Below are positions 6,371 to 21,093 of a stretch of DNA of 21,093 nucleotides, piece by piece. The first letter of the stretch is position 1. Every line of letters starts with the position of its first letter. The notes under the pieces are model-generated. The model ran no database searches. It was not told the origin of the DNA and saw nothing but the letters and a program-made list of their open reading frames with translations. The DNA is from a virus, in the IMG/VR virus record IMGVR_UViG_3300009418_000148, positions 1 through 21,093 of that record; one strand, given 5' to 3'. A program made the translations under genes and the position numbers.

Positions 6371-7141
6371 TTATATCGCAGTCCAGTTAAATACAACGAA
6401 CTCATTAGGATTTTGTTTAGTACCTCTTATGTTCGTAAAAGTAAAGCTAATGTAAACAGCTCCATCGTAATCTGCTATTGATGGGCGCGCCACGGAGACT
6501 TGAGAGGGTCCAAGAGAACCACCGCCAACAGGGTTATCGGCCGAACCAGTTTGCTCCACTATGTTTACAATCACATTGTCTGTGGCTTTAAGCACGCCGG
6601 CATAATTATGCACAGACGTATAAAATTCACCATTATTAGCAACTTCACTAGTACAGGTAAAGTGAATTTGACCACTTCGTTCAAAAACAGCCTGTCCAGT
6701 ATCATCTGCTGAGCTACCAGTACGATAATAACGTTTCTTATCGCTGTGGTAGGACCCGGAGAAACCGAGTTCAGGGCCATGGGCCGCGGTCTTGAAACCT
6801 GAACCAGTTACGGCGGAACCTTGCAAAGAACCAGTTAAAATAACTTGACCCATGTCGGCATTAGCACCAACAGTCATCTCGCCTGTATAAATATAAAGGC
6901 CGGATCCGGTAACAGAACCCACATTTGTAGTTCCGGCAGTGAAATCTACATCTCCAGCCGATAAAAACGTTGTGCCAGTGACAGCTCCCATATTAGCAGC
7001 AGGCTTACCGGCAATATCTCCACTAATACTGAATGAACCTGTAACCTGATGTACATCAGTTGTTTCTGAACCGAAACTAACTGGGCCCTCTTGATCCGCT
7101 GGGCTACTTGAAAAACCACCGCCGCCGCCAAAATTTCCCAT
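6371..7141 (-). CDS. Beta-rich probable virion protein sharing a module with the fibre
   Basis: 256 residues, Gly-rich N-terminus (MGNFGGGGGFSSS), then repeats of the form GKPAANMGAVTG and NVGSVTGSGLYIYTGEM to about residue 105, then a distinct beta-rich C-terminal domain (SGQIHFTCTSEVANNGEFYT and later DYDGAVYISFTFTNIRG). The segment from TTNVG to QVILTG matches the large fibre protein at 18357-21093 in 28 of 34 residues. No signal peptide or membrane segment. Lying between the gp21/gp22 genes and next to another beta-rich protein, it is most simply a head-associated fibre or decoration protein, possibly occupying the role of Hoc-type outer proteins, but I do not recognise the family. Ribosome binding site AAGGAG, 13 bases after the previous gene. 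Confidence 0.7.
   Translation of the reverse strand: MGNFGGGGGFSSSPADQEGPVSFGSETTDVHQVTGSFSISGDIAGKPAANMGAVTGTTFLSAGDVDFTAGTTNVGSVTGSGLYIYTGEMTVGANADMGQVILTGSLQGSAVTGSGFKTAAHGPELGFSGSYHSDKKRYYRTGSSADDTGQAVFERSGQIHFTCTSEVANNGEFYTSVHNYAGVLKATDNVIVNIVEQTGSADNPVGGGSLGPSQVSVARPSIADYDGAVYISFTFTNIRGTKQNPNEFVVFNWTAI
6831..6932 (-). repeat. Module shared with fibre gene (copy at 20683-20784)
   Basis: These 102 bases align without gaps to 20683-20784 inside the fibre gene; I count about 75 identical positions by eye. Both copies are in frame and encode the TGSGL[YW]IYTGE[MV] and ADMGQVILTG blocks. The protein match is higher than the DNA match, so the copy is old and kept by selection, or was acquired separately from related phages. 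Confidence 0.8.
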
Positions 7142-7590: not shown

Positions 7591-7803
7591 TTAATTAGTG
7601 TCTTGTTGTTGTTTAATCTTCTTATTTAAAGCTTTTATTCGCTTTTTAAGCTTGTTTCTTTTTTCAGATGGTTTCTCGTAATACATTCTATCACGAAAGT
7701 CTTCAAGTATTTGTTCTTTTTTGATTTTTTTCATAAATCTTTTTAAAGCTCTGTCAATATGCTCCTCCCTTCTAACTGCTACCTCAACCTTAACTGATTT
7801 CAT
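7591..7803 (-). CDS. rpsU: Ribosomal protein bS21 (phage-encoded)
   Basis: 70 residues, highly basic. The body VAVRREEHIDRALKRFMKKI, then KEQILEDFRDRMYYEKPSEK and a Lys/Arg-rich tail, matches the bS21 family position by position with E. coli S21 ([37 protein letters not shown]). bS21 is a small-subunit protein near the anti-Shine-Dalgarno end of 16S rRNA and helps initiation. Phage copies have been reported from aquatic viruses (established knowledge) and are thought to replace host bS21 on ribosomes to favour phage messages. Unusually, it lies within the virion-protein cassette, 5 bases after the preceding gene and 19 before the next, so it would be made with late genes. Length is normal and no key region is missing. 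Confidence 0.9.
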   Translation of the reverse strand: MKSVKVEVAVRREEHIDRALKRFMKKIKKEQILEDFRDRMYYEKPSEKRNKLKKRIKALNKKIKQQQDTN

Positions 7804-7808
7804 ATTGT

Positions 7809-8243
7809 TTATCCCTTAGCTAGTGCTTTCCAGATGTTGGCTTTACCGGCAAACCTTGATATATCAACGCCGGCGTCAGTTGGCTCGAGCCCAGAAAGGG
7901 CCCCTTGGGGCGCTCCACTTGCAGCTGGGTTGCCAGCTCTGGTTAGTGGTGCTGTATTTTCAAACAAGTCAACACCATTGTAAGAATCGCGCCCAATTGC
8001 ATCTAACATTTTTTTTCTGGTTTCGCTCATTTTATGTGTTCTCTTTTGTTTTTCTTGCAATTGTAATTGTCTAATTTCGTTATCGTTTTCTTGTTTTTGC
8101 TCGACAACTAATTGCTGTGTGGTCCCTAGACCTTTTACAACTTCAGAAATGACAGTAGACAATAGGCCTTCTTCTAAAATGGCTTCTTGAATGCATTCTT
8201 TAATAAGCGGCTTTAATACTTTTTTGAGTTCTGATTTTTTCAT
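7809..8243 (-). CDS. Tagged-like prohead-region protein, helical
   Basis: I choose the ATG at 8243 (144 residues, MKKSELKKVLKPLIKECIQE) because it forms an ATGA overlap with the previous stop, as its neighbours do; a longer frame from 8387 would overlap the upstream gene by about 150 bases. The N-terminus is a looser form of the tag seen on nearby proteins and ends in I14-K15-E16, a gp21-type cleavage site, with L-E-E-G at about residues 24-27 as a second. Next comes GLLSTVISEVVKGLG, a Gln/Glu/Lys-rich helix to about residue 75, then a Gly/Ala/Pro-rich linker and an end ANIWKALAKG. Conserved in related phages by recollection; no known function. Likely an internal or core protein of the prohead. 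Confidence 0.65.
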   Translation of the reverse strand: MKKSELKKVLKPLIKECIQEAILEEGLLSTVISEVVKGLGTTQQLVVEQKQENDNEIRQLQLQEKQKRTHKMSETRKKMLDAIGRDSYNGVDLFENTAPLTRAGNPAASGAPQGALSGLEPTDAGVDISRFAGKANIWKALAKG

Positions 8244-8623
8244 TCTGTTTCTCCGGACACCATCCAGTCTGGCCTTAAGTATTTTTTTTGTATCAGCCTC
8301 ACCTTCCGTTTGCCGGCGCCTTTGACACCTCTCGGCCACATAAACTTTACACTTCCGGGGTGATCTGGTTGATCCGCGGCCAGCCATTCTTCTTCTAGTA
8401 CTTCGCCAGGAGTATTTGGTTTAAGGCCCGGGCCCAACATATTTTCTTGCTGAGTGGTCAAATGAAATCGTTCATCTCCGTCGCCGGCCCGGGCTGATTT
8501 TTTTACACGAACGGGGACTGTTGTTGGTTGTTCTAATTTTACTACTACTGATTTAGTTTCTTGAATAGCCTTTTCAAGTTCTTCTTTGATGATTTGTTTA
8601 AGTTGTGATTTTGTTAGTTTCAC
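8240..8623 (-). CDS. Tagged small basic protein next to prohead protease
   Basis: 127 residues starting at a GTG that overlaps the gp21 stop (GTGA). The N-terminus is the consensus tag MKLTKSQLKQIIKEEL, with I12-K13-E14 as the putative protease site. The rest is polar and rich in Pro, Arg and Lys (VPVRVKKSARAGDGDERFHL, later GVKGAGKRKVRLIQKKYLRP). Small, basic, tag-bearing and coupled to the protease gene, it fits an internal protein packaged with DNA, like T4 IPI-IPIII, whose targeting sequences are also cut by gp21. No enzyme motif is seen. Function is not known; the packaging role is inference. Confidence 0.72.
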   Translation of the reverse strand: MKLTKSQLKQIIKEELEKAIQETKSVVVKLEQPTTVPVRVKKSARAGDGDERFHLTTQQENMLGPGLKPNTPGEVLEEEWLAADQPDHPGSVKFMWPRGVKGAGKRKVRLIQKKYLRPDWMVSGETE

Positions 8624-9240
8624 TTATCGCTTTCTCCTTTTAGTACATCGTTTAATGCGCGATTGATTCTATCTGCTTTTGTGAATACGCCTTTCACAGC
8701 GCCTTCATGAAGATGTCTTGGTGTCATATACGCACCAGTCGTTGAAGGCTCAGAAACCATATCAAAACAAATCAATTGAAAATCATCCTCAACGATTGTA
8801 TCTCCGTTAGATTCGGTAACTGAGCCCATTCCTCTAGAAGAAATTCCAAGTTTAACGCCGGCATTAACAAGCTCTTTTAACACTTGGCCTGAAGGAGTGT
8901 TGAGTACTTGAATTTTGCCCATTACAGCATCATTGTCCCACCAAACTTCTGTTACAAGGTGGGAAGCATTTCTAAGATTAATAACTGACTCATCCGGGTG
9001 ATCTAATTCGCCTAATGCTCTTCTTTCTTTTACAAGCTTTGTGTAGTTTTGTACTTCTCTTTGTAAGATGGGGCTGGGATATACGCGACCATTGCCATTT
9101 TTCGCGTCCGCCCTTTGCATAATACCACTAAGGAACACATGACCTTCTTTAACCATTTTCTTTTCGGCTTCAGTTAGAAAGTCTTGGCAAACGCCACCTT
9201 CACAAAGTTCGTAGTATTCCCTTAATAGTAGTTTTGACAT
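8620..9240 (-). CDS. 21: Prohead core protease (gp21-like, S80 family)
   Basis: 206 residues, close to T4 gp21 (212). After the N-terminal FLTEAEKKMVKEGHVFLSGI come the family marks NGNGRVYPSPILQREV (49-64), GELDHPD with candidate catalytic His81, and GVKLGISSRGMGSV (128-141) with the nucleophile Ser134 or Ser135, then FDMVSEPSTTGAYM. These are the assemblin-like serine protease motifs of T4 gp21. The enzyme resides in the prohead core and, when activated, cuts gp23, gp22 and internal proteins after (Leu/Ile)-x-Glu. Its own N-terminus holds L22-T23-E24 followed by Ala, a plausible self-processing site. The gene is flanked on both sides by tag-bearing genes, overlapping the downstream one by GTGA. 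Ribosome binding site CAAGGA. Confidence 0.93.
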   Translation of the reverse strand: MSKLLLREYYELCEGGVCQDFLTEAEKKMVKEGHVFLSGIMQRADAKNGNGRVYPSPILQREVQNYTKLVKERRALGELDHPDESVINLRNASHLVTEVWWDNDAVMGKIQVLNTPSGQVLKELVNAGVKLGISSRGMGSVTESNGDTIVEDDFQLICFDMVSEPSTTGAYMTPRHLHEGAVKGVFTKADRINRALNDVLKGESDK

Positions 9241-9260
9241 TTAATTAATATCCTTGTGAT

Positions 9261-9533
9261 TTATACCGGGGGGGAATCAGGAGGCAGGAAACGGCCTCCG
9301 GGGGTTTCACCCTTCAAAAGATCCATTGCAACTTGCAGAATCGGGTTCGCAATGATATCTAAATCAGTGGTTTTCCCAGTTCGCATCTCAATTTGTGTTA
9401 CAATAATCTCAGCTAGGTTGCCCACCGCATGCGAAATATCCTGTTGCGCGCCGAGATTTTCTGACATGTTGCCAGAGAAATTTTGCAACTCTTCTTTAAT
9501 AATCCCTTTCAATTGTTTTTTCGTTAATTTCAT
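9261..9533 (-). CDS. Tagged small protein before prohead protease
   Basis: 90 residues, starting with the tag MKLTKKQLKGIIKEEL (I12-K13-E14 then Glu). The remainder is helical (DISHAVGNLAEIIVTQIEMR, then LDIIANPILQVAMDLLKGE) and ends in a Gly/Pro tail (GRFLPPDSPPV). Strong ribosome binding site AAAGGAG about 9 bases before the ATG, 20 bases before gp21. In T4 this place is held by small core proteins gp67/gp68, so a core or internal protein is likely. A run of seven C (on minus) just before the stop could hide a sequencing slip that changes the last residues. No known family recognised. Confidence 0.75.
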   Translation of the reverse strand: MKLTKKQLKGIIKEELQNFSGNMSENLGAQQDISHAVGNLAEIIVTQIEMRTGKTTDLDIIANPILQVAMDLLKGETPGGRFLPPDSPPV

Positions 9534-9556
9534 TTGATAAAACTCCTTTATTAGTT

Positions 9557-9605
9557 TGTTGTAACAATAAGAAGCACAGTCAGGCGCCTTTACAACACCT
9601 CCTTA
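9557..9605 (-). promoter_or_regulatory. Orphan perfect Shine-Dalgarno with adjoining inverted repeat
   Basis: In the 92-base gap, the minus strand carries TAAGGAGGTG (9605-9596), a ten-base match to the 16S rRNA 3' end, but no usable start codon follows at normal distance. The sequence next to it, TGTTGTAA (9597-9590), is exactly complementary to TTACAACA (9564-9557), giving an 8-pair stem whose left arm overlaps the Shine-Dalgarno end. It could be a leader structure controlling the tagged gene at 9533, or a relic of a lost gene. Confidence 0.35.
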
Positions 9606-9625
9606 CGGGCTGTAACATCCACTTA

Positions 9626-9922
9626 TTAGTTGTCCAAATGTTTGAATTCATGTTTAACTCCATTATCTCCAAATAGTGTGCATAAAATGTAAGATGTTCC
9701 AGAACTCAAACATCCTAACAAGAAATAATTAGCAATACTATTGTCAAATATAAATAGTTCTGTATATTTGTTTATTCCTACTAAAAACACGCCAACCCAA
9801 AATCCAATACACATTGGACAATGGAAGAAATGGTGTTTAGGTCTTATTTTTTCGAATACTGAACCATAGGTCAAAATTTGCGTTAAACCATAGGTACAAA
9901 GAATAAAATATATTAACTCCAT
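9626..9922 (-). CDS. Small membrane protein with CPMCxGFW motif
   Basis: 98 residues with three hydrophobic stretches: about residues 3-18 (LIYFILCTYGLTQILT), 35-51 (CPMCIGFWVGVFLVGIN) and 63-84 (IANYFLLGCLSSGTSYILCT). The HCPMCIGFWVG motif is typical of small phage membrane proteins of the DUF1360 type, which I recall as uncharacterised. It starts one base after the previous gene. Its place among prohead core genes is odd, since T4 prohead assembly begins on the inner membrane; a membrane anchor for the initiator complex (as T4 gp40 does for the portal) is one idea, but this is inference. An AACTATTTATA motif lies inside the gene. Confidence 0.7.
   Translation of the reverse strand: MELIYFILCTYGLTQILTYGSVFEKIRPKHHFFHCPMCIGFWVGVFLVGINKYTELFIFDNSIANYFLLGCLSSGTSYILCTLFGDNGVKHEFKHLDN
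9749..9759 (-). promoter_or_regulatory. AACTATTTATA motif inside membrane-protein gene (copy 3)
   Basis: Third exact copy of the 11-mer, in frame as codons for Glu-Leu-Phe-Ile, about 216 bases upstream of the tagged gene at 9533 and gp21. Being inside a coding region it may be chance, but it could start a transcript for the protease group. Confidence 0.25.
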
Positions 9923-9923
9923 T

Positions 9924-10493
9924 TTAATACCTATAGAATGTTGTCATCCCATATGGGCCGCGGACCCACCCTGGAACAAGAGAGCCTTTCTTTTCTTCGT
10001 GAGGTATTTCGCCAAGTTCTGTGGAATCTTCATCGCTAGGATTCAAAAGATACTCTTCCTCTTCTTCAAACTCGTCGACAAAATATGGCCTTTCCTCTTT
10101 CATAAAACTCTCAATTAAAAACAGAGCTACGTGAAAAGGATTTATTTTTTCATCTATCGATTCTAGCAGTTTTGCTTCAACGGAGCCATACACATTGCCC
10201 CCTTGGATTGAATCGTGTGCAATTACTCCTTTTTTGGAAAGAAACTCAAATAATCTATTTTGGGTTTTATAAACTTTATCACTTGTTACTTTTCTTCCTT
10301 TTGAAAAAGTGACTATTTTTTTGGTTCTTGGGACTAATACAATATCAATATCCATATGATCAAAGATCATGATATTCCCATCAATACTTTTGCGTGCATT
10401 AAGTAAAACTGTAGCTTGTGGCTTTCTTTCTTCGCCAACTCTTAGAACAACTTGTGGTTCTTCCTCTTGTTCTATTTTAAATACAATTGCCAT
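9924..10493 (-). CDS. Conserved prohead-region protein of unknown function
   Basis: 189 residues. The first 90 are beta-rich (MAIVFKIEQEEEPQVVLRVG, then IMIFDHMDIDIVLVPRTKKI), with a helix-containing centre (NRLFEFLSKKGV; LLESIDEKINPFHVALFLIE) and a very acidic stretch near residue 140 (VDEFEEEEEYLL), ending in GWVRGPYGMTTFYRY. It overlaps the previous stop by one base (TAATG) and is followed one base on by the membrane gene. Its place between portal and protease corresponds to T4 gp67/gp68 (core proteins), but size and sequence do not resemble these. A structural or core role is plausible; I do not recognise it. Confidence 0.68.
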   Translation of the reverse strand: MAIVFKIEQEEEPQVVLRVGEERKPQATVLLNARKSIDGNIMIFDHMDIDIVLVPRTKKIVTFSKGRKVTSDKVYKTQNRLFEFLSKKGVIAHDSIQGGNVYGSVEAKLLESIDEKINPFHVALFLIESFMKEERPYFVDEFEEEEEYLLNPSDEDSTELGEIPHEEKKGSLVPGWVRGPYGMTTFYRY

Positions 10494-11326
10494 TAATCTA
10501 AAATCTCTTTTGCCAATTTTTGAATCTTGAAGATTTTGTTAATTAAACGTTTATCAATATTTTCATTTTTCATTTTACTGAGAGTTAATAAAACTTTTTT
10601 AGTTTTCTCTGTCATATCTGAATCATCTTTTACCTCTTTCGAACTTAAAGAATTTTTAACAATTTTTTTAAGCCTGGCTATTTCCTCGTTAAGATATACT
10701 TTTAATTCAAGTCCGTTGTCAACGAAAGAAGAAATATATTTATTAAGCATTTGCTTTTGCTCTTCAAGTAATTTTGTGGAATATTCCAAATTAAACTTGT
10801 TTATAAAACTTTGAAAAACAATATTATCAATAGGCTTCATGTTGCCTTCTTTTTGGTTTTTATTGGAAATTAATTTTCTAACTATCTCATTTTCCAAAAG
10901 AACACGTTGTTTAACAGGACACTCGTTATCAAATATTTGGTAAATTGTTGCTATGCTCTTATAATTGGGAACAAAATTTGAGAAAACAGATTTTGATAAT
11001 ATTTTATTTATTTGTTTTATGACACTACTCTGTTCTAGAAAAAGTTTGTCCTTGTCAATTTTTGAATGTTCTTTTTTAACTTCAGTTATTAATTTCTCTG
11101 CTAGGTGTGGGTGTACATCAGAAGTTTCATATAACGCCTTATACAAATTTAATTCTTTGAGAAGTGTAGTTTTTTTATTGAAGCCTTTATTAATAATCGA
11201 CGCTAGCTCTTTTTTTAGTTGCTCATTTTTTTCCATTATTGATCGTGATAATTCTCTAATAAGGACTTCATAAAGAAAAGCCGTATTACGCTTCTTGTTG
11301 TGCTTTATCTTCATCTTTAGATTCAT
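10493..11326 (-). CDS. Helical, lysine-rich protein following the portal gene
   Basis: 277 residues, almost all helical and rich in Lys, Asn and Ile. It begins MNLKMKIKHNKKRNTAFLYE; the ATG at 11326 has GGAG ten bases upstream and gives a 41-base overlap with the portal gene, while the ATG at 11314 (overlap 29) is a good alternative because HNKKRNTAFLYE is the part I recall as conserved in marine T4-like phages. Long helices include EQLKKELASIINKGFNKKTT and LEEQKQMLNKYISSFVDNG, suggesting a coiled-coil assembly protein. It is in the portal-to-protease gap of the T4 order. Likely a prohead core or portal-associated factor; no function is known to me. Confidence 0.7.
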   Translation of the reverse strand: MNLKMKIKHNKKRNTAFLYEVLIRELSRSIMEKNEQLKKELASIINKGFNKKTTLLKELNLYKALYETSDVHPHLAEKLITEVKKEHSKIDKDKLFLEQSSVIKQINKILSKSVFSNFVPNYKSIATIYQIFDNECPVKQRVLLENEIVRKLISNKNQKEGNMKPIDNIVFQSFINKFNLEYSTKLLEEQKQMLNKYISSFVDNGLELKVYLNEEIARLKKIVKNSLSSKEVKDDSDMTEKTKKVLLTLSKMKNENIDKRLINKIFKIQKLAKEILD

Positions 11327-13259
11327 TATTTTTTTGCTCCAATTCAGTTATTAAATTTTTAACATCATGATGAACTTTAAATATCTTGTTTTCTTCATCA
11401 TTATAATTAGTGTCTTGTATTTCGTAAATTCCCTTACCTAGGCTAGTTAATTCACCTGCGCCCTTAAAAACATTTCTTTTTGTATTCCTGCCTGTCTCAT
11501 CTGAATATTTGGCTCTGTAAGATCTTTTTCTTGCTCCAGCTTGTCTTTTGTCCGCGCGAACTGGAGTATACCATTTGCCTTTAGATTTAGAAGTTGTAGT
11601 TTTGCCATCATTTCTTCTTTTAACTTTGTACCAATCTTCATCTCTTTTGCCAGGAGGGGCTGCCAAAAGACCATATTCTTCTTCTTCGCCAGCTTCAGCG
11701 CCGGGTTCAGCGCCAAGCTCTTCAGCGCCGGGTTCGACACCAAGCTCTTCAGCGCCAAGATCGGCGCCTAACTCTCCTCCTGCTTCTAATCCTCCACCGG
11801 CCGCGGCTGTTATCCCCTCTTCACCAGCAGCTTCTAGGGCGGATTCAAACTTCTTATCATAAAATAGTTCTCTTTGCATACGAATGAATTCTTCATCAGA
11901 AAGATTAAATACATGTTTCGCAACCCAACGCTTACTAAAGAAACCTTCAGTAGCTGAACCTGCTGTATCAAATCGAGTTTTCCAATTTTCCAATTCTTGC
12001 ATTTCCGCAATCTTCGAAGGATTATTAAGTGAAAGCCTGAAAGAAATTAAATCACTTCCTCTATACCCAAGTGTAAACAAATGAATGATTCCAATTTTTT
12101 CCAATTCAGTAACAACAGCTCTTTGTAATCTTTGAACCGTTCTTGCGAAACGAATATCTTTTTGAGCTAATGTTGTTTTATCTTCTTCCGCGCCTTCGCC
12201 CCTAAAAAGGTATGCTTGAGGAATTTTAAGAGCGGCAAACAATTTATTTTTTAGATATTTAACATCATCGATATCCCCTGTGTATGAGCCCCCGGCGATG
12301 GTATCGATTTTGGTACTAGAGTCGCCTCTAACCGGAATAAAATAGTCTTCTTCAATGCTTAAGGGGTTATACCGTAAGTCAACACGTCCGGTGGCAGCGT
12401 CAACTACTTGATTTCTTTTCATCTGTGTCATTGCTTTTTGCATAAATTGCTCAACATCTTCCGGTGGAATATTGCCAACATCAATGTAAAATATTTTTCT
12501 TTCTGGGGAACGAACAATACGATATGCCATCATAGCATCTTCCAAAAGATTTAATTGTCTCCAAATTCTTCTCGCCGGCTCCAGAATGCTCGTTCCGTAT
12601 GGGGCATATTTGTCGTTTCCTAAAATACGAAAATGAGCAATCTGCCAATTTTCAAAAGTTATTCCGCCAGAATTCCATTGATACTGAACATAGTTTGGAT
12701 TTGTTTTGTCTTCACCTTCGACTCTCTCTACTTCAGAACCCGGCATGCCAATTACATTTTTAACACCAATCTCTTCATCAATGTCTAAATATAGAAAAAA
12801 ATCACCATACTTACACATCGAGCGGCACCATCCAAAAAGATTGAATTCTATATTCATTGCGTTATGGTATACGCTTTCGAGTATTTCTTTTATCTCTTCA
12901 TTTGGGCACTTAATTGTTAACAATGGTTGCAAGTCACTTGAAGTCGCCATTTCATCTGCATATATATCTAATGCGGACGCAGTAATTGGCTCATATTCCA
13001 TCTGCTCAAAATCACCATATCTTTCAATGCGATTTTGATTGGCCATGATATTAGCAGTAAGATTTTCAAAAGGATCATATGATGTTTTTTTAAATTGTTT
13101 CCCACTAGCAGAGTGAAATTTATATTTGTCTAGTTGCCTTCTTTTTTCCTTTCTAGGTAGTTGAGTTCTATAATTTACAATTGGGCCTGAAAATAATTTT
13201 GTCAATCTTTTAAATAAAGAAGACAGGGGGTTTCTTGGGTTGTTTTTACGATCTGCCAT
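11286..13259 (-). CDS. 20: Portal protein (gp20)
   Basis: 657 residues. The portal core covers about residues 60-480 and contains gp20 landmarks: YEPITASALDIYADEM, EFNLFGWCRSMCKYGDFFLY, GTSILEPARRIWRQLNLLED, AYRIVRSPERKIFYIDVGN, and GKLAALKIPQ-type KNKLFAALKIPQAYLF with RTVQRLQRAVVTEL. The portal is a dodecamer at one vertex that starts head assembly and forms the DNA channel and the docking site for terminase and neck. It is about 130 residues longer than T4 gp20 (524): residues about 480-520 are an Ala/Gly/Glu repeat (GAEELGVEPG) and the last 130 are basic and polar (YKVKRRNDGKTTTSKSKGKW). Five bases after terminase; overlaps the next gene. Confidence 0.95.
   Translation of the reverse strand: MADRKNNPRNPLSSLFKRLTKLFSGPIVNYRTQLPRKEKRRQLDKYKFHSASGKQFKKTSYDPFENLTANIMANQNRIERYGDFEQMEYEPITASALDIYADEMATSSDLQPLLTIKCPNEEIKEILESVYHNAMNIEFNLFGWCRSMCKYGDFFLYLDIDEEIGVKNVIGMPGSEVERVEGEDKTNPNYVQYQWNSGGITFENWQIAHFRILGNDKYAPYGTSILEPARRIWRQLNLLEDAMMAYRIVRSPERKIFYIDVGNIPPEDVEQFMQKAMTQMKRNQVVDAATGRVDLRYNPLSIEEDYFIPVRGDSSTKIDTIAGGSYTGDIDDVKYLKNKLFAALKIPQAYLFRGEGAEEDKTTLAQKDIRFARTVQRLQRAVVTELEKIGIIHLFTLGYRGSDLISFRLSLNNPSKIAEMQELENWKTRFDTAGSATEGFFSKRWVAKHVFNLSDEEFIRMQRELFYDKKFESALEAAGEEGITAAAGGGLEAGGELGADLGAEELGVEPGAEELGAEPGAEAGEEEEYGLLAAPPGKRDEDWYKVKRRNDGKTTTSKSKGKWYTPVRADKRQAGARKRSYRAKYSDETGRNTKRNVFKGAGELTSLGKGIYEIQDTNYNDEENKIFKVHHDVKNLITELEQKNNESKDEDKAQQEA
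11694..11765 (-). repeat. In-frame tandem repeat in portal gene
   Basis: A 30-base unit (agcgccgggttc and ccaagctcttc on plus) is repeated about two and a half times. It encodes the GAEELGVEPG / GAEELGAEPG units of the portal's acidic linker. Such repeats commonly vary in number between close relatives. Confidence 0.75.
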
Positions 13260-13264
13260 TAATT

Positions 13265-14851
13265 TTATCCTTTAAGAAGCCAAATAAAGTTTTCTTGTTC
13301 ATCTATACTTTTTTTCATTTCATCAGATTTTTGTATTGGCTTATATTCGTTCATTCCTGATATAGATGTATTAATTATACTATCAGATTTAAACATAGAA
13401 TTTAAACAAGCCTTTTGATATTCAATTTTTCTTTTGTTTTCGACAAACACCGTATCTTTTATCCAACACCCAATTGCAAAAGACATAACTAAATCATCAT
13501 TTTCTGATCGCATTGCTTGTGCCTTTCCGTTATTCCAAATAAAAGTCTTAAATTCATTATAGAGTCTAGACGAATACGTTGTAATTAGCTTGTTTCTTAT
13601 AAATTCTTCCATCTTAGCGACAATAATTGGTCTTGTTTTTAACGAAGTTGTGAAACCAGCTACACTATTAGAATTATGTTCTGCAGTTAGCTGATCAATA
13701 TATTCATGAGTTGATTTAATAGAGTAATATATATTTGAGTATTCCATATCTTTGAGTTTGTCTAACACCGCAAACCCAACTGAATTATTTTCAACAACCA
13801 CCAAACAGCTGCCATATTCTTTACCAGCGTCGGATAATATATTTGAAAAAATATCTGGCGCGACTTTTCCTTGATATTCTGCAACCACTTCTGCTGTCTC
13901 CAGCTTGAAAACATGGAACACAGAATAGTCTTGCCCGTCGCCTCTAGCAACATCTGCAGTGATCATATATGTGTTCTCTGGCTTATATTCTTCCCAAATC
14001 CAAAAATTTCTATCAAAGCCGGTTCTATATTTTGGCTCTTTTATGTTTTGTTCAATAAATGTTAGATCTTCTGGATGTATTACTGTTTCACCAGAAGTGT
14101 TAAAATTACATTCAAGCTCTTGAGCAATTTGGCGGATTGACATATTTTTAGTTTCTTTCTCAAACCAATTTTGATCACGATCTGGGTGTACGTCCCACAA
14201 TAGTTTTGTTGGATGAAAGTCATTTCTTCTTGCTTCTGAATCAATATATGTTTTAAAAAACCAGCCACCTACACCATTTGGAGTACTAAGGGCAATGCAG
14301 CGGCCGCCAGTTGAAATTGTAGGATATAAACCTGTCCAAAGCTCTTCAAGGCCATCGACATGTGCAGCCTCATCAACGACTAATAATGATAATGCCTCTG
14401 AACGGCCGGCATCAACAGAAGTAGAAGATGCTTTAATTTGAGATCCATTGCTTAGTTCAAAACTAGCTCTATTATCAACAATGACTTTTGCCATCTGAAT
14501 CCATTCGGGCAAATATTGAATTATCGCTTTGACTTTTTTAACAAGGTTCGCTGCTGTGTGATACTTTGTTGCGACAACCAACACATTTTTACTACGATGA
14601 AACATCATTAACCAAACAACATAAGCTGCTGTAATTGTTGAAATTCCAAGTTGTCTTGCCTTTAAAATAATGTTGAAACGATAATCATTGAAGTCTTCGA
14701 TAAGATCTTCTTGATAATCATAAAGCTTAAAAGGAATTAGCCCTCTCATCGGATGAGAAATTTTACAATAGTTGTTTATAAAATAAACTGGATCCTTACC
14801 ACACTTAAGGATCTCTTTCGTTATTTCTTTCTTTGTTAATTGGTAAGACAT
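13265..14851 (-). CDS. 17: Terminase large subunit (gp17)
   Basis: 528 residues (T4 gp17 has 610). The ATPase domain holds an adenine-motif region YDYQEDLIEDF (45-55), a P-loop ILKARQLGIST (62-72), Walker B LSLLVVDEAAH (154-164) with catalytic Glu161, and the coupling motif STPNG (189-193). The RNase-H-like nuclease domain has ITADVARGDGQDYS (297-310, Asp300), VVVENNS (351-357, Glu354) and NDDLVMSFAIG (451-461, Asp452/453). It powers DNA packaging through the portal and cuts the concatemer. The P-loop lacks the usual Gly-Lys-Thr: Lys lies earlier, in LKARQ, as in many phage terminases of this type. It follows a tagged gene by 11 bases and precedes the portal by 5. No recognisable small terminase gene is upstream. 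Confidence 0.96.
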   Translation of the reverse strand: MSYQLTKKEITKEILKCGKDPVYFINNYCKISHPMRGLIPFKLYDYQEDLIEDFNDYRFNIILKARQLGISTITAAYVVWLMMFHRSKNVLVVATKYHTAANLVKKVKAIIQYLPEWIQMAKVIVDNRASFELSNGSQIKASSTSVDAGRSEALSLLVVDEAAHVDGLEELWTGLYPTISTGGRCIALSTPNGVGGWFFKTYIDSEARRNDFHPTKLLWDVHPDRDQNWFEKETKNMSIRQIAQELECNFNTSGETVIHPEDLTFIEQNIKEPKYRTGFDRNFWIWEEYKPENTYMITADVARGDGQDYSVFHVFKLETAEVVAEYQGKVAPDIFSNILSDAGKEYGSCLVVVENNSVGFAVLDKLKDMEYSNIYYSIKSTHEYIDQLTAEHNSNSVAGFTTSLKTRPIIVAKMEEFIRNKLITTYSSRLYNEFKTFIWNNGKAQAMRSENDDLVMSFAIGCWIKDTVFVENKRKIEYQKACLNSMFKSDSIINTSISGMNEYKPIQKSDEMKKSIDEQENFIWLLKG

Positions 14852-14862
14852 TCATTATTGTG

Positions 14863-15582
14863 TTATTGTTTGACGCCAGGCTCTAATATACTTTTGTACA
14901 CAAAATATTTTATCTTGGCCATATCCGTGCCGGCCCCAGATATATCAATATTATCCGGAACCGTCTTGCCCATTTTCCCCCACATATCAATCATTTGCTT
15001 ACTCGGTATGAAATTATCCATCAATCGTTTACCACCTATGAATACGCGGCGGTTTGGGCTCAAATGCTTGGCCAAAAGATCCTCTGATTCTTTATCCCAA
15101 TTTTTTTCTGCTTGTGGGGCGTCGAGTTCAGCGCTGTAAACATCTCGCGGCTGTTGCCATTGTCCTGGTGCGACAGGTTTCAAACCTGTGCGGCCCATAC
15201 CTCCACGCAAGGGATCTCCAGAATGTTTCTTAAGCCAGTCTCCGATCTCGGCCCAAAATGACTTTTCCTCTTCTGGAGGCAACTCTTGTGTTGCGGCGGC
15301 TACTTCTTTTGATGGAGGTTCAGGTGGAGCGCCGGCGAATGCTGGTGTTGAAGTGAGAATACTTGTAACAGCCATCAACGGCAAGCCATATTTCATTGCC
15401 AATCTCTTAGCAGTATCCTTGAGGCCTTCAGCCAACAGTTCTTCTATTTCTTTTTGCGACTTGCCCTCAGTCAGCAACTTTATAAAACTCTCTTTGATAT
15501 ATTTTTCAAATTCTTTTTCAATAAGAACTCTTTGTGTTTCTTCTACAATGACCTCTTTTAATTGTGATTGAGCAAATCTCAT
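14863..15582 (-). CDS. Tagged protein with buried signal-peptide-like segment
   Basis: 239 residues, ATG in an ATGA overlap with the previous stop. The N-terminus MRFAQSQLKEVIVEETQ is a divergent tag with I12-V13-E14. More (Leu/Ile)-x-Glu sites follow: IKE31, LTE39 and LAE52, the last two each followed by Gly. Directly after LAE52 a positive stretch (GLKDTAKRLAMKYG) leads into a hydrophobic core (LPLMAVTSILTST) and PAFA-G, which together look like a Sec signal peptide ending at Ala83, although it is 50 residues from the N-terminus. The rest is a Pro/Glu linker and a mixed C-terminal region (RRVFIGGKRLMDNFIPSKQM). No enzyme motif. Just upstream of the terminase. An internal or pilot-type protein is my inference. 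Confidence 0.7.
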   Translation of the reverse strand: MRFAQSQLKEVIVEETQRVLIEKEFEKYIKESFIKLLTEGKSQKEIEELLAEGLKDTAKRLAMKYGLPLMAVTSILTSTPAFAGAPPEPPSKEVAAATQELPPEEEKSFWAEIGDWLKKHSGDPLRGGMGRTGLKPVAPGQWQQPRDVYSAELDAPQAEKNWDKESEDLLAKHLSPNRRVFIGGKRLMDNFIPSKQMIDMWGKMGKTVPDNIDISGAGTDMAKIKYFVYKSILEPGVKQ

Positions 15583-15914
15583 TTTTTTGGCTGTATCGCT
15601 TTCATCACCATATTGGCTGTAGCAGTATCGTTACCCAAAGCAAGCAGCAACCCTCTAGAGGAATCTCCCTCTTGTGGAAGTTGATGTCGTAAAACCAACT
15701 GTATAAGTTGTGCATATTCCTTTTTTGATTTGACAGCTGGAAGTATAGACCTAACCCTCTCCACAGCGCTCAATAATTTTTCTTTAGGTTTCCCCGCGGG
15801 AGCCGCTGTTGGGGGAGCCGCGGCGGGGGCGCCTGCTGCATCAGTTCTAAGTTCCATTATTTTATCAAGCTCTTCCTTGATGATTTTCTCAATCTGTGAT
15901 TTGGTAAATTTCAT
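15579..15914 (-). CDS. Tagged protein with Ala/Pro linker and helical domain
   Basis: 111 residues, ATG in an ATGA overlap with the gene before, and itself overlapping the next by ATGA. Three parts: the tag MKFTKSQIEKIIKEEL (I12-K13-E14), an Ala/Pro-rich linker at about residues 25-45 (AAGAPAAAPPTAAPAGKPKE), and a helical domain at 47-111 (LLSAVERVRSILPAVKSKKE, then YAQLIQLVLRHQL and NMVMKAIQPKK). The domain order resembles a targeting peptide joined to a cargo by a flexible linker. The cargo domain is not recognised. Lying two genes before terminase, it could also be considered for the small terminase role, but there is no helix-turn-helix I can defend. Confidence 0.72.
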   Translation of the reverse strand: MKFTKSQIEKIIKEELDKIMELRTDAAGAPAAAPPTAAPAGKPKEKLLSAVERVRSILPAVKSKKEYAQLIQLVLRHQLPQEGDSSRGLLLALGNDTATANMVMKAIQPKK

Positions 15915-16483
15915 TGTTCTTTCTTCCTTGTTACATTTTGGGGTTTTTTACCCTTGCCAATTTCAAAATTTTTGTTATAAGCTAACCAAGTTTTCGTAAT
16001 TTGATCTAGATGTTCTTTCGCAGAAGATCCTTCTTCGACGGCGACAACTCCATCTAGCCCGCCAATTTTGTACATGCAATTCGCCTGACAAGTGCTTCTA
16101 ACATTACTAATATGTTGGACCATAATGTCTGGATCGCCTTCTTTCGTTAGAGATAAACTATCTCCTGTAATTTTTTTATACTCTCTTTTTAAATAATTTG
16201 CTATATCGTTAATGTTGGCTGTAATTGTATTTTCAAATCTATTTTTATCATGAGTTTCTTTAAGCTTAATCTCTGCATGATATAAAATATTTAATTTATT
16301 TCCATGAAAGCGAACCTTAAATCCATCAATTTCTCTACTTTCTAAAACAGAATCACCTTCTTCCCTTCGAAGTCCCATTTTTTTCTCTTCGCCATCGGCA
16401 GTATAACGCTCATCGTGCGAACCATCATAAGCATTCGCTGCTGCTTGTGAGATCCCTTTTATAATATCTAATACAGTTGCCAT
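15911..16483 (-). CDS. Conserved phage protein of unknown function (AAANAYDG type)
   Basis: 190 residues starting MATVLDIIKGISQAAANAYD. A block GLRREEGDSVLESREIDGFK leads into a beta-rich middle (VRFHGNKLNILYHAEIKLKE), then a helix (IANYLKREYKKITGDSLSLT) and VRSTCQANCMYKIGGLDG. I recall proteins of this layout in many marine T4-like phages, always near terminase and uncharacterised. Two cysteines at about residues 136 and 140 could be a metal or disulphide pair. Ribosome binding site CTAGGAG 7 bases from the ATG. The C-terminus is basic (GKGKKPQNVTRKKEQ). A virion role is likely from context only. Confidence 0.7.
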   Translation of the reverse strand: MATVLDIIKGISQAAANAYDGSHDERYTADGEEKKMGLRREEGDSVLESREIDGFKVRFHGNKLNILYHAEIKLKETHDKNRFENTITANINDIANYLKREYKKITGDSLSLTKEGDPDIMVQHISNVRSTCQANCMYKIGGLDGVVAVEEGSSAKEHLDQITKTWLAYNKNFEIGKGKKPQNVTRKKEQ

Positions 16484-16511
16484 TATTTATCTCCTAGCTG
16501 TACATAATGAT

Positions 16512-17273
16512 TCAATATAAGTAGTTCTGTCTTTCTTTAATGTCTACGACTTTTTCGAAAACGACCATGGTATTATGATGTATCCAGTTTTTGTAGTTTT
16601 CATCTTCTCCAAGTATTCGGGCGTCTCCGTCGCGTTTGCCTCCCTCCCGAGCGCGCACCGCCGGGTCGTAACGACGTTTCTTTCCTAGAATTTTATTATA
16701 AATATAAGGTGTGATATAATAAATTAAGTTCCAATTTAAGTTTAGATCATTAAAAAACTCAAGCCACTGATCATGCTTCCAACATGTTAAATGAAGATTC
16801 TGTTTCTTGTTTGGGCGATAGCCTTCTGGAGTATTTGATATTCCGTGAGCAATATATCTATTGGATACTCTAAAACATTCTCTATGTGCCTCTTCTTGAT
16901 CTGAGGGTAATAGATGTTCAATAACATCTGTTGACATAACCAAATCAAAAGAATTGTCTTCATAGGGTATGTTAGTTGCAGAAGCTACTTTTCCTTTGTA
17001 GCCCTTTCGTTTAACTTTGTCTATAGCCGTGCGTGATGGATCAATTCCACAAACTAGTTTTCCCAGATCTTTCGCCATATAATTAAGTCCAATTCCAGGA
17101 CCGCATCCGATGTCAAGAACTGAATGGAATTTTATTTTTGAAGGATTAATACAATATCGAAACATACCAGGATAATGCGAGTCATTTAATAAATTGGTAC
17201 AAATTCCGCCATAATTATGTTTTTTATATAGTGTTTCATATATTTCATTATAAAATTTTAATTTATTATCCAT
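16512..17273 (-). CDS. SAM-dependent methyltransferase, class I
   Basis: 253 residues. Motif I is VLDIGCGPGIGLNYM (about 52-66), motif II LVCGIDPSRTAIDKV, then ATNIPYEDNSFDLVMSTDVI followed by EHLLP, the standard SAM-binding fold of Methyltransf_11-type enzymes. The C-terminal half (HLTCWKHDQWLEFFNDLNLN onwards) is substrate-specific, and the target is unknown. Phage enzymes of this kind can modify DNA, proteins or sugars; the nearby fibre gene makes virion or glycan modification a possibility but gives no proof. A very G+C-rich stretch (16621-16680) encodes a Arg/Gly/Asp-rich insert (VRAREGGKRDGDAR). The ribosome binding site is weak (GAAG), and the gene starts 3 bases after the previous stop. 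Confidence 0.85.
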   Translation of the reverse strand: MDNKLKFYNEIYETLYKKHNYGGICTNLLNDSHYPGMFRYCINPSKIKFHSVLDIGCGPGIGLNYMAKDLGKLVCGIDPSRTAIDKVKRKGYKGKVASATNIPYEDNSFDLVMSTDVIEHLLPSDQEEAHRECFRVSNRYIAHGISNTPEGYRPNKKQNLHLTCWKHDQWLEFFNDLNLNWNLIYYITPYIYNKILGKKRRYDPAVRAREGGKRDGDARILGEDENYKNWIHHNTMVVFEKVVDIKERQNYLY

Positions 17274-17276
17274 TCT

Positions 17277-17981
17277 TCAAACCAAATCACTATCCCGTTT
17301 AAATGGTACATTAACTCTCATCCATGGTTTACCATATTTTACATCCGGGGAAATATATACTTTTGATTTTTTATAGTTTTTCCACCAATTTTCTGCTTTC
17401 TTTCTCCAAGTTGGAACTTTGGTTTGTTTTTTAAATTTCAAAAAAGAACGCAACGCCTGTTGTCGTTTTTTGTCTGGTATCTTGACATCAGATAAAATTT
17501 TATCATACACAAGAACTGGATTTTCTTTTGTTTCTGCAGCCCAAGCTTCGTCCGTTGTTGGGAGCATAGCAGCAGTTCCCATTAAAAAGGCTAGCACAAT
17601 CTCTTTTATGCCCTCATTTAACTCTTTTTTTTTTATTGCTTCTTCTACTTCTTCTTTAATGATTTGTTCTAACTGGGTGATTGTGTCCTCTTCTGGAGGT
17701 CTTCGTCCGCCGGGGTTGGTATCTGTTGTAGGCTTGGCTGTCCACTCACGCTCTGCCTCCGGTTCTGCAAATCTACTTGGTTTTTCTCCTGTAGACAAAG
17801 AATCATAAAGTTTAGCAGTTAGCTCTTCAATTGAATCTTCAAACTCTGCACGAATTCTGCGAGTTTCCGAATACAAGTCGTTAATATCCAATCTATTTTG
17901 AGCTATCAGTTGAGAATCAGTCATCTCATTAGTAAATGCTTCTTTGATAAGTTGTTTTAATTGTGATTTGGTTAGTTTCAT
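17277..17981 (-). CDS. Tagged protein with second internal tag and hydrophobic segment
   Basis: 234 residues, ATG in an ATGA overlap with the previous gene. N-terminus MKLTKSQLKQLIKEAF with I12-K13-E14 then Ala. Residues about 20-65 are helical (RRIRAEFEDSIEELTAKLYD), then a polar Pro/Gly linker (68-98), then a second tag-like helix ITQLEQIIKEEVEEAIKKKE (101-120). LNE123 followed by Gly is another candidate protease site, directly before a hydrophobic segment (IVLAFLMGTAAMLP) and DEAWA-A, a signal-peptidase-like end. The C-terminal third is basic and aromatic (KKAENWWKNYKKSKVYIS). The same order of tag, I/L-x-E-Gly, hydrophobic core and AxA occurs in the protein at 14863-15582. No known family. 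Confidence 0.72.
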   Translation of the reverse strand: MKLTKSQLKQLIKEAFTNEMTDSQLIAQNRLDINDLYSETRRIRAEFEDSIEELTAKLYDSLSTGEKPSRFAEPEAEREWTAKPTTDTNPGGRRPPEEDTITQLEQIIKEEVEEAIKKKELNEGIKEIVLAFLMGTAAMLPTTDEAWAAETKENPVLVYDKILSDVKIPDKKRQQALRSFLKFKKQTKVPTWRKKAENWWKNYKKSKVYISPDVKYGKPWMRVNVPFKRDSDLV

Positions 17982-18356: not shown

Positions 18357-21093
18357 TTATGCCGAATGATAAGTGCATGTAATTAATTTTGTGGTACCTG
18401 ATTCATTAGCCCAAATAACAGGCTCAGTGGCTTTCGCTACAGTATAATTATGAAGTAAATCATCATCTTGTTTCTTGCCATGGCCAACAGTGTTTGAAGA
18501 ACAAATATAATCGCCCAATTCAATGTCACCGCCTTCCGAACAAACTAGAATGTGACCATCACCTAAACAAAAAATTGAATGAAAGTTTTCTTCATCGAAG
18601 CCTCCCGGGATGTCGGGTTCATATGGATATTTGCGGCTGTAGACTCCAAAAACAGCTTTATCCTTCGCTTGAGTTGTTTTTTCAGCAGAATAATTAACTT
18701 TTTTTCTTTCTGGTCCAGTTGTAGTAGATATAATTTTGATTAATGTTCCATATGGATATCCATTTTCGTTATCTTCTTCTGGAATTGAAACATCATGATT
18801 TGCTGTAAAAGCGCCATATGATACAGTTCCTCCTGAAAAAGTGATCTTCCCTTGAGTCACGCCATTACCGGCCAGGAAGATGAGGGGTGTGCCAGCGGAT
18901 TCGTTCGGGGCGAAGGCGTCTGTACCACATTGTATTGAGAGACCATGGTTCGAGATATTTTCACCATCGTTCTCGATGTGCGCGGCGGCGCCAGGGCCCT
19001 CGTGGGTGACGATAAAGGGATACCTCGGCGTCAATTCGTCGATGGGGATGTAGTTGGAGTTCGCTTCGCCGCTCCTGATAGACACATATCCCTCGGCGTT
19101 GCGGTTGAGGGGAGCAGCAGTTTTGGCGCCGGCGGCCCATACCTTCAGACTCGTTGACATAAAATTGCCTGTCAACTCCAATATCGAACCGTTAAATATA
19201 AGATTAGCTTCTCCATCAAGTTCTGTTGTAGTACTGCCAATTGATACTAGTCTGCCTTCTGTTTGATTGTTGAGAGCAGTTATCGTACCAGCGGGGCCAT
19301 CTTGCCAAGAACAAGTTCCGTCACCGTCTTCTCTTAAAAATTTATCTCCTCCTGACTCGCCAGTAGAAGCTAATTCAGTGCCTTCCAAATTGCAAGCAAA
19401 TGTTAAATCATAAGGATCGGCGTTCGAACCAGGAGAAGTATCAGTCCAGTTGATATCAATACCAGCACCTTCTACAAATTTAACTTCCTTTGCATTTGTA
19501 ACTGTGACTTCTGTGCCGTCGCCGTCCTCGAGAACCCAGTTTGTCATGCCTGCGGCGACGGAAGACATGTTGGCTGACACGTCCATGAATTGTAGAAGAT
19601 ACCAATTAGTTCCGTCAAAAACCCACTGAGTAACATCGCCATTGGCAGTGGTTATATTAGTTGAGCCGCCCTTTAAATTAGTACTGGTCACATCGTAAAC
19701 AACTGCAGCCGTTGAAATAACGGTAATAATTTGGCCAGCGACACCATCATCAAACATCCTCAAGGTCTGCCCGCTAGCGTGAGTTTTGAAAAGATTCCCG
19801 CCCTTTACCGATGGCGTGATATCGCTTGAACTAAAAGTTGAGAACGTTCCAGCAGGCCCACTAAATGCAGCTGGACCTTTTACCAGCAGTGAAGAACCAG
19901 TGATTGCGCCTTTTGCACAAGAGAACGAACCAGTTAAAGTAACAGTTCCAGGGTTACCAGTTCCAATTGTCACTTCACTTGTGGCTACGTTAAGTGATGA
20001 ACCAGTTATTTGACCAAAAGTAGCGTGTGTTCCAGAGACGGCTCCAGACAAATGCGCAGAACCGAAGATATGTGCGTCTCCAGTTATTCTAAGAAGAGAA
20101 CCAGTTATTTGACCAAAAGTAGCGTGTGTCCCAGAGACGGCTCCTAAAGTGGCAGCTGGTTTGCCACCTAGAGTTCCAAAACCTGAGCCTTCAGAAAAAG
20201 TAAAATAGGCACTGTCTGTCAATTGACCGTTTGAAGTGGCAAAAGTAGCTCTGCCTGACGTTAAATTAGCAACTCTTAAAGTAGTGCCAGATAAAGCACC
20301 TTTTACACAAGCGAACGAGCCAGTTAAAGTGACAGTCCCGGGATTTCCAGTCCCAATTGTCACTTCGCTTGTGGACAAGTTGAGTGATGAACCAGTTATT
20401 TGACCAAAAGTAGCGTGTGTTCCAGAAACGGCTCCAGACAAATGCGCAGAACCGAAGATATGTGCGTCTCCAGTTATTCTAAGAAGAGAACCAGATACTT
20501 GCCCAAAGGTGCCATGGGTTCCAGTGACTGCTCCTAAGTCAGAACCCGGTTTGCCGGCTATAGTTTTGGTAATACTAAGTTCAGATCCAGTAATTGGCCC
20601 ACCACGTAAGTAAATGGCAGATCCAGTAATAGCTCCTAAGTCAGAACCCGGTTTGCCGGCTATAGTAGCAGCAGTGAATGAACCAGTCAATATAACTTGG
20701 CCCATGTCAGCCTCTGCGCCAATGGTAACTTCTCCAGTATATATCCAAAGACCAGATCCTGTAAGGGCACCTACATTGGTAGTCACTGAGTCAAAATACA
20801 CAGGACCTGTAGCTGTATAAGTTGAGCCAGTGATTGCTCCCAGGTTAGCAGCTGGCTTACCACCCAGTGTCGTCCCGTCAAATGTAAATTTGGAACTATC
20901 CGTTAATTGACCATTTGAAGTGGCATAAGCAACTCTACCAGATGTTAAATTAGCCAATCTTAATGTAGAACCAGTAAGGGCCCCTATGAGCCCGCTGCCA
21001 GTTAATTTAAGAGACGAGCCAGTAATTTGACCAAAGGTGCCATGAGTGCCAGTGACAGCACCAAAGAAGGTGGCTGGTCTTCCGCCCAGTGTC
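18357..21093 (-). CDS. Repeat-rich tail-fibre-like protein, N-terminus outside window
   Basis: At least 911 residues; the frame is open to the right edge, so the true start lies outside (a TTG at 20957 is not a believable start because the repeats continue through it). The N-terminal half is built of Gly/Thr/Ser-rich repeats such as GKPGSDLGAITGS, GTHATFGQITGSSL and ITGDAHIFGSAHLSG, likely a beta-spiral or triple-beta shaft. Next is a segment YDVTSTNLKGGS with DVTQWVFDGTNWYLLQF, then GGDKFLREDGDGTCSWQDG, both familiar from marine phage fibres. The last 110 residues (FHSIFCLGDGHILVCSEGGD, ELGDYICSSN, YTVAKATEPV) form the conserved C-terminal domain of such fibres. It probably contacts the host surface. 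A G+C-rich block (about 18870-19160) lies inside. Confidence 0.85.
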   Translation of the reverse strand, partial: TLGGRPATFFGAVTGTHGTFGQITGSSLKLTGSGLIGALTGSTLRLANLTSGRVAYATSNGQLTDSSKFTFDGTTLGGKPAANLGAITGSTYTATGPVYFDSVTTNVGALTGSGLWIYTGEVTIGAEADMGQVILTGSFTAATIAGKPGSDLGAITGSAIYLRGGPITGSELSITKTIAGKPGSDLGAVTGTHGTFGQVSGSLLRITGDAHIFGSAHLSGAVSGTHATFGQITGSSLNLSTSEVTIGTGNPGTVTLTGSFACVKGALSGTTLRVANLTSGRATFATSNGQLTDSAYFTFSEGSGFGTLGGKPAATLGAVSGTHATFGQITGSLLRITGDAHIFGSAHLSGAVSGTHATFGQITGSSLNVATSEVTIGTGNPGTVTLTGSFSCAKGAITGSSLLVKGPAAFSGPAGTFSTFSSSDITPSVKGGNLFKTHASGQTLRMFDDGVAGQIITVISTAAVVYDVTSTNLKGGSTNITTANGDVTQWVFDGTNWYLLQFMDVSANMSSVAAGMTNWVLEDGDGTEVTVTNAKEVKFVEGAGIDINWTDTSPGSNADPYDLTFACNLEGTELASTGESGGDKFLREDGDGTCSWQDGPAGTITALNNQTEGRLVSIGSTTTELDGEANLIFNGSILELTGNFMSTSLKVWAAGAKTAAPLNRNAEGYVSIRSGEANSNYIPIDELTPRYPFIVTHEGPGAAAHIENDGENISNHGLSIQCGTDAFAPNESAGTPLIFLAGNGVTQGKITFSGGTVSYGAFTANHDVSIPEEDNENGYPYGTLIKIISTTTGPERKKVNYSAEKTTQAKDKAVFGVYSRKYPYEPDIPGGFDEENFHSIFCLGDGHILVCSEGGDIELGDYICSSNTVGHGKKQDDDLLHNYTVAKATEPVIWANESGTTKLITCTYHSA
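19906..20104 (-). repeat. Fibre gene direct repeat, copy 1
   Basis: This copy matches 20296-20494 at a fixed offset of 390 bases, or 130 residues, in frame. The stretch 19994-20104 is almost identical to 20384-20494, with only a few changed bases, while the outer part is more diverged. It encodes the IFGSAHLSGAVSGTHATFGQ region and its flanks. Confidence 0.88.
20296..20494 (-). repeat. Fibre gene direct repeat, copy 2
   Basis: Partner of the copy at 19906-20104. The near-identical core suggests recent duplication or gene conversion; it offers a site for length change of the fibre shaft by recombination. Confidence 0.88.
20683..20784 (-). repeat. Module shared with the 6371-7141 virion protein
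   Basis: Ungapped partner of 6831-6932, both in frame, encoding the NVG-TGSGL-IYTGE-ADMGQVILTG block. The link between a fibre and a protein beside the capsid genes is described under findings. Confidence 0.8.

Follow-up and report, generated by a model that had tools for sequence, protein, structure and literature searches.

Amongst the closest described systems are the internal proteins of the T-even phages, which share an N-terminal packaging leader alone and are injected as inhibitors of restriction enzymes; T4 has three leader-bearing proteins, each of which inhibits a distinct restriction system (PMC12373910). For T4 IPIII, the leader reads MKTYQEFIAE↓A in the T4 record (arrows mark actual or supposed cut positions), with leader mutants indicating that targeting depends mainly on residues 4 and 7, and processing on residues 8 and 10 (PMC9026906). 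The ejection proteins of phiKZ and SPN3US are packaged head proteins whose propeptides are trimmed by a protease after a glutamyl residue (PMC9026906). Injected phage proteins are hard to learn about, and outside of a few model phages they are mostly unknown. Herein we describe a short sequence, the tag, that begins five proteins encoded by IMG/VR record IMGVR_UViG_3300009418_000148, a 21 kb stretch (21,093 nt, referred to as the window) from an uncultivated marine T4-like phage in the IMG/VR viral-contig collection. The tag is likely to be a new lineage-specific capsid-targeting sequence, with the proteins that bear it being putatively packaged, cleaved and injected.

The tag and its conservation

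The five tagged proteins, each recognised as an open reading frame with a match to the tag pattern, are as follows (aa, amino acids):

17277-17981, minus strand: tagged protein 1, 234 aa; tag MKLTKSQLKQLIKE↓A at 17940-17981
15579-15914, minus strand: tagged protein 2, 111 aa; tag MKFTKSQIEKIIKE at 15873-15914
14863-15582, minus strand: tagged protein 3, 239 aa; tag MRFAQSQLKEVIVE at 15541-15582
9261-9533, minus strand: tagged protein 4, 90 aa; tag MKLTKKQLKGIIKE at 9492-9533
8240-8623, minus strand: tagged protein 5, 127 aa, GTG start; tag MKLTKSQLKQIIKE at 8582-8623

That these proteins share a common start, as put forward in the original prediction, is borne out by the reading frames and translations at 17981, 15914, 15582, 9533 and 8623, all of which lie on the minus strand. 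A DNA pattern covering all five tags matches those five places alone within the window, with 0.00 matches expected by chance (none in 100 dinucleotide-preserving shuffles). The motif proposed for the end of the tag also holds, with residues 12-14 being [IL]-x-E in 5/5 window tags, as does the likeness to T4, in that the tag lines up position by position with the IPIII targeting sequence; when the two are aligned on the final Glu, IPIII residues 4, 7, 8 and 10 correspond to tag residues L8, I11, I12 and E14. A spacing of Phi-x-x-Phi-[IL]-x-E is common to the tag, the IPIII leader, T4 gp23 (F-GS-F-L-T-E65), T4 gp24 (I-NE-L-L-R-E10) and the site in the window capsid protein. The capsid proteins of tag-bearing contigs display a conserved propeptide ending NQAxxLLRE, which aligns with T4 gp23 E65↓A66 and resembles the SQLKQIIKE of the tag, the capsid-protein cut sites being alignment predictions throughout.

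Under the capsid-targeting reading, the N-terminal leader, predicted to be helical, would bind the prohead core during assembly via L8 and I11. The S77 (gp21-type) protease would then recognise I12-x-E14, cutting there or at a second [LI]-x-E some 4-8 residues further on, and this cut would free the body within the head, to be injected, probably, together with the DNA.

With regard to spread, at least 120 matches to the tag pattern occur in 2.9 million viral contigs, a count that, as with all of those from such scans, is a lower bound. Most contigs are fragments, and counts across tagged proteins and contigs ignore kinship. A permuted pattern gives 0 matches in the same contigs, and 50 tag-bearing contigs of ≥30 kb contain 1 to 17 tags each, with the reversed pattern having 0 matches everywhere. 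The tag recurs across many T4-like phages, and is, as foreseen, usable for finding such proteins in other genomes. Within 257 Gb of bacterial and archaeal genomes, 14 stretches carry the tag pattern, several of them holding 7-8 tags, and the metagenome-assembled genome (MAG) contigs in which they reside are probably phage. The bacterial MAG contigs NHDW01000006.1 (L273/L281/L283; ~14 tags) and PBIO01000025.1 (L277/L280; ~9 tags) are probably misbinned large phages. Two tandem major capsid protein genes are seen in jumbo tag-bearing contigs (L290 and L297).

The leader is strictly N-terminal, as befits a capsid-targeting sequence: in 377 loci (3.5 Mb) that were not chosen with the tag pattern, the tag core falls directly after a start codon 53 times, and elsewhere once. 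Because the search pattern fixed or partly fixed residues 1-5, 7, 8, 11, 12 and 14, the high conservation of these residues in the sequence logo is partly built in. Positions left free in the search are still strongly biased, with K/R at 9 and 13, E at 15 and L/I at 16; moreover, a set of nine homologues found via their bodies (one protein and eight others at 34-67 % identity to it) retains L8, I12, E14 and E15 without exception, while residues 2-7 drift. As third codon positions vary freely, it is apparent that the tag is conserved at the protein level. This bears on the notion that the repeat serves as an element of the DNA or RNA, such as a recombination seed or translation signal, and lies incidentally within the first codons. 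Within a locus, codons that encode the same tag residue match exactly in 62 % of cases versus 41 % expected, suggesting that tag DNA has been copied between genes; however, with third positions free, and with homologues in which the key residues are retained and the others differ, such an element is disfavoured to the point of being scarcely credible.

The S77 protease and the proteins behind the tag

The gene for the presumed cutter lies, as originally described, directly between tagged genes 9261-9533 and 8240-8623. Its product matches PF03420 with 115.7 bits against a cut-off of 27, and has the portal, terminase and capsid protein nearby, placing it within Peptidase_S77; the S80 label first given to it is not supported, with no S80 profile amongst the matches listed. 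S77 is present in 34/50 tag-bearing contigs, compared with 8/50 random contigs (sampled by random 14-mer, n = 50; p = 2e-7), and the tag occurs in 1/50 of the latter. Leaving aside contigs in which a T4-type portal is missing or present only as a fragment at the edge, 33/33 tag-bearing contigs have S77, and tag-bearing contigs without S77 are also without a portal, except for one portal fragment at a contig end. The tag thus lives in S77 phages, although co-occurrence alone cannot separate function from descent. It had been suggested that phage genomes be searched for both a link to the protease and closeness to head genes; the former is seen wherever the head module is present, whilst the latter is not general. 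In one contig, G022, the S77 and portal matches are split within long open frames (579 and 2366 aa), with the genes possibly being fused or intein-bearing.

Other relevant features of the window are:

3339-5201, minus strand: major capsid protein (PHROG); predicted propeptide cut NQAKELLRE59↓N at 5025-5051
5217-6290, minus strand: predicted scaffold, gp22-like by position, with homologues in 19 other head modules; 17 [LI]xE sites
7809-8243, minus strand: sixth protein, 144 aa; N-terminal motif LKPLIKE↓C, ILEE↓G, distinct from the tag
8620-9240, minus strand: gp21-type prohead protease, presumed cutter; PF03420 Peptidase_S77, E = 2.5e-33; phrog_207, 3.8e-55
11286-13259, minus strand: T4-type portal protein, head-module marker; phrog_213, 1.4e-70
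13265-14851, minus strand: terminase large subunit; phrog_2, 9e-55

The sixth protein (MKKSELKKVLKPLIKEC), previously listed as a looser copy of the tag, aligns weakly with a family encoded, in jumbo contigs, a short way downstream of the protease, sharing with this family LKxxxKEC, E20, L23-x-E25-G26 and C-terminal residues. Its N-terminal motif is real, and similar, but the protein is a conserved head-module protein of a separate family and not a further copy. Elsewhere in the window, the gene for tagged protein 3 is directly upstream of the terminase gene, and a methyltransferase-like gene (16512-17273; DIGCGPGIGLN), itself untagged, sits among the tagged genes. The head module also harbours a ribosomal protein S21 homologue (7591-7803; PF01165, 4e-14), as does that of Microcystis phage Mel-JY01. 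Repeats of the TGTHGTFGQITGS / GKPAANLGAITG type are common to the proteins at 18357-21092 and 6371-7141.

The tagged proteins number 305 when made non-redundant, with a median length of 110 aa. A scan of 136 of these matches 5 Pfam families, with one protein each, compared with 37 families (including DNA polymerase, sigma factor, single-strand binding protein and baseplate) for 136 length-matched untagged proteins from the same loci, a difference from which it follows that the tag avoids replication and structural proteins. On the basis of sequence comparison, the bodies are unrelated, and mostly small proteins of unknown kind. Those of the window have no convincing Pfam or PHROG relative, and none is homologous to T4 IPI-IPIII; for tagged proteins 1 and 3, no close relatives are present in the viral contigs. 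The idea that the tagged set represents widespread membrane proteins was rejected, with a transmembrane-like stretch in 6/292.

A match to a head scaffolding family in one tagged protein, together with the several motif sites in some tagged proteins (in tagged protein 3 these fall after residue 14 and additionally after residues 31, 39 and 52) and the position of the sixth protein family adjoining the protease, accords with a role as prohead core or scaffold helpers. In the manner of T4 gp67 and gp68, these would be targeted, chopped and expelled, with no host entry. A core, however, would need far fewer than the 17 or so unrelated tagged genes that a contig may carry at most, many of them in distant arrays, and tags of the same build, described below, stand on enzyme-like bodies (Acb1-like, NUDIX, kinase, HD and nucleotidyltransferase-like); we thus consider a purely core-helper function improbable.

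Predicted sites of cutting

A profile of capsid sites ranks E14 best in 232/305 tagged proteins, although here one motif is counted many times. Across 23 window proteins, each considered over its first 75 residues, the motif is found in the capsid protein (at the predicted cut), the six proteins discussed above and two others. The prediction that cleavage follows residue 14 in every protein is not supported, as residue 15 is Ala in 1/5 window tags and Glu in 4/5, and Glu is the acceptor at 0/51 predicted capsid-protein sites. A second [LI]xE at residues 18-24 is ~7 times commoner than at residues 31-80 (8.4 % versus 1.1 % of positions), and small acceptors are found at 90/189 second sites at residues 18-27, compared with 88/339 distant sites. 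Additionally, a second site at residues 18-30 accompanies Glu15 in 155/227 proteins, versus 27/63 for those with a small residue 15 (p = 4e-4, kinship ignored). We read this as two predicted cut sites, of which the second is used where the first is poor. This would make an N-terminus at residue 15 likely for some proteins only, and the final cut probably does not fall at E14 in every case.

Within the window, the protein starting at 17981 (LIKE↓A) is the best candidate for a predicted N-terminus at residue 15; it also contains an internal tag-like stretch, ITQLEQIIKE↓E, with a cut position at residue 110. Tagged protein 5 has a second site, AIQE↓T, at residue 22. In tagged proteins 1 and 3, late sites (LNE↓G, LLAE↓G) are followed by a hydrophobic stretch ending AWA↓AE or AFA↓GA that resembles a signal peptide, and could be a hidden membrane or export signal exposed by cutting. 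The P2 residues of the tag and the capsid site were also compared across lineages, and are not seen to co-vary: in lineage B the capsid site has V/M/I and tag B has T/N.

The original proposal of a targeting tag is upheld in part: the tag is portable, strictly N-terminal, found on unrelated bodies, linked to S77 and ends in a protease motif. A number of observations nevertheless count against it. Glu is residue 15 in ~77 % of tagged proteins, unlike the acceptors of capsid sites, and in large genomes the tagged genes lie in arrays distant from the head genes. G032 (147 kb) and G004 (82 kb) carry the tag with neither portal nor S77, although these may be fragments. Comparison of the tag with cultured phages by tblastn gives no match, the query being short and of low complexity, and its DNA yields weak, chance-level matches by blastn, with no cultured carrier found. 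In the literature searched, no virion proteomics for a tag-bearing phage was found. Lastly, the S77 co-occurrence could derive from common descent within T4-like phages. Herein lies the case for the tag being a helix for assembly or host interaction that has nothing to do with the capsid (e.g. docking to a phage or host enzyme, or to membrane), fixed in one T4-like clade and tied to S77 by descent: the clade is T4-like throughout, such that S77 would be present anyway, and 8/50 random contigs have S77 without the tag. Such a helix would not lead one to expect a protease-like I-x-E at the end of the tag, a match to T4 targeting positions, a surplus of second [LI]xE sites bearing small acceptors, or three other tag families built alike; it is accordingly unlikely, and capsid targeting is the preferred reading.

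Sister tags and comparison with known systems

At least three further tag families share the build of the main tag and its link to the protease. Judged by the protease, Flavobacterium phage immuto is the nearest relative in culture, and it has two repeated leaders, MKKQILSEQFRRMQKLAGIITE↓S and MENFDLKKFLVENKLTxNSKLLKE, both of which are widespread, although immuto is the only cultured phage found to carry them. For the first of these, P3 is I/L/V in 97 % and the acceptors are small (S, N, G), none of which was fixed by the search; for the second, the closing L-L-x-E was likewise free. The fourth tag, MKLLFENWRKYLKE, is exactly 14 residues in length, with W8, Y/F11, L12 and E14, the last two having been set by the search. 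Considering contigs with a whole portal and that continue past it, S77 is present in 23/23 with either immuto leader and in 14/14 with the fourth tag. The LFENW tag has no match by tblastn, and the tags were not found in the literature searched, with preprints and most subscription journals outside of that search; a paper on phages of the immuto isolates' host strain contains no virion proteome.

Related bodies are found behind different leaders, namely MKLTKAQLKRLIKE in L097, MKQILENFRRYERQILKE in L019/L044 and FENFRRFLKE in L038, as well as, with a weaker relation, MKIKKSILIEAVRKVIKE in L005. One sister-tag protein has an Acb1-like domain after the leader (residues 64-146, E = 9e-7), and other bodies contain NUDIX, kinase, HD, DnaJ and nucleotidyltransferase-like domains. 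In T4, Acb1 is an enzyme acting against the cyclic oligonucleotide-based antiphage signalling system (anti-CBASS), and is encoded beside ipI (PMC9117128). AlphaFold models are of low confidence, with a mean predicted local distance difference test score of 37 for an Acb1-like tagged protein and 54 for a tagged family. A short conserved domain (GEGSMARSQLGRTAELALMLQ...WVESKITKSQDYLSSVLNYM) occurs behind several leaders and also inside a long protein (L036, L043, L081 and L306, immuto gp191).

The tag is part of a wider class of putative lineage-specific targeting sequences sharing Phi-x-x-Phi-[IL]-x-E. Beyond this, the balance tips slightly towards T4-like lineages using interchangeable capsid labels (at least four families), by which large, fast-changing sets of premade effectors, including anti-CBASS-type enzymes, would be packed and injected, with bodies swapping labels between lineages. 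If so, this exchange would make the labels a sequence-readable catalogue of injected phage proteins, listing hundreds of candidates in uncultivated marine phages. As these are mostly unknown small proteins, they would be good candidates for anti-defence or take-over functions, and marine T4-like phages would possess ready-made labels for loading proteins into their heads.

Of the known systems, the T4 internal proteins share with the tag a short N-terminal leader on unrelated small proteins, the Phi-x-x-Phi-[IL]-x-E spacing, a gp21-type site at the leader end, a phage-encoded S77 and bodies that vary fast between phages. Differences between the two are that the tag has at least 14 residues compared with 10, that the sequence match is limited to spacing, that a second [LI]xE often lies ~8 residues on, that Glu is usual at P1′, and that up to 17 tagged genes occur in one contig, versus three internal proteins in T4. 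The tag would work like a T4 capsid-targeting sequence and, the bodies being unrelated, would not denote membership of the T4 internal-protein families. The cut sites of T4 gp23 and gp24 (FLTE↓A, LLRE↓S) have the same motif at the cut as the tag, and the propeptide end of the window capsid protein, NQAKELLRE↓N, is close to SQLKQIIKE; unlike the tagged proteins, gp23 and gp24 are shell proteins with one fixed site and no portable label. Finally, phiKZ and SPN3US resemble the proposed role of the tag in having protease-trimmed propeptides on the packaged head proteins of large phages, although their protease is diverged and their propeptides are longer and varied, whereas the tag is one short, repeated label.

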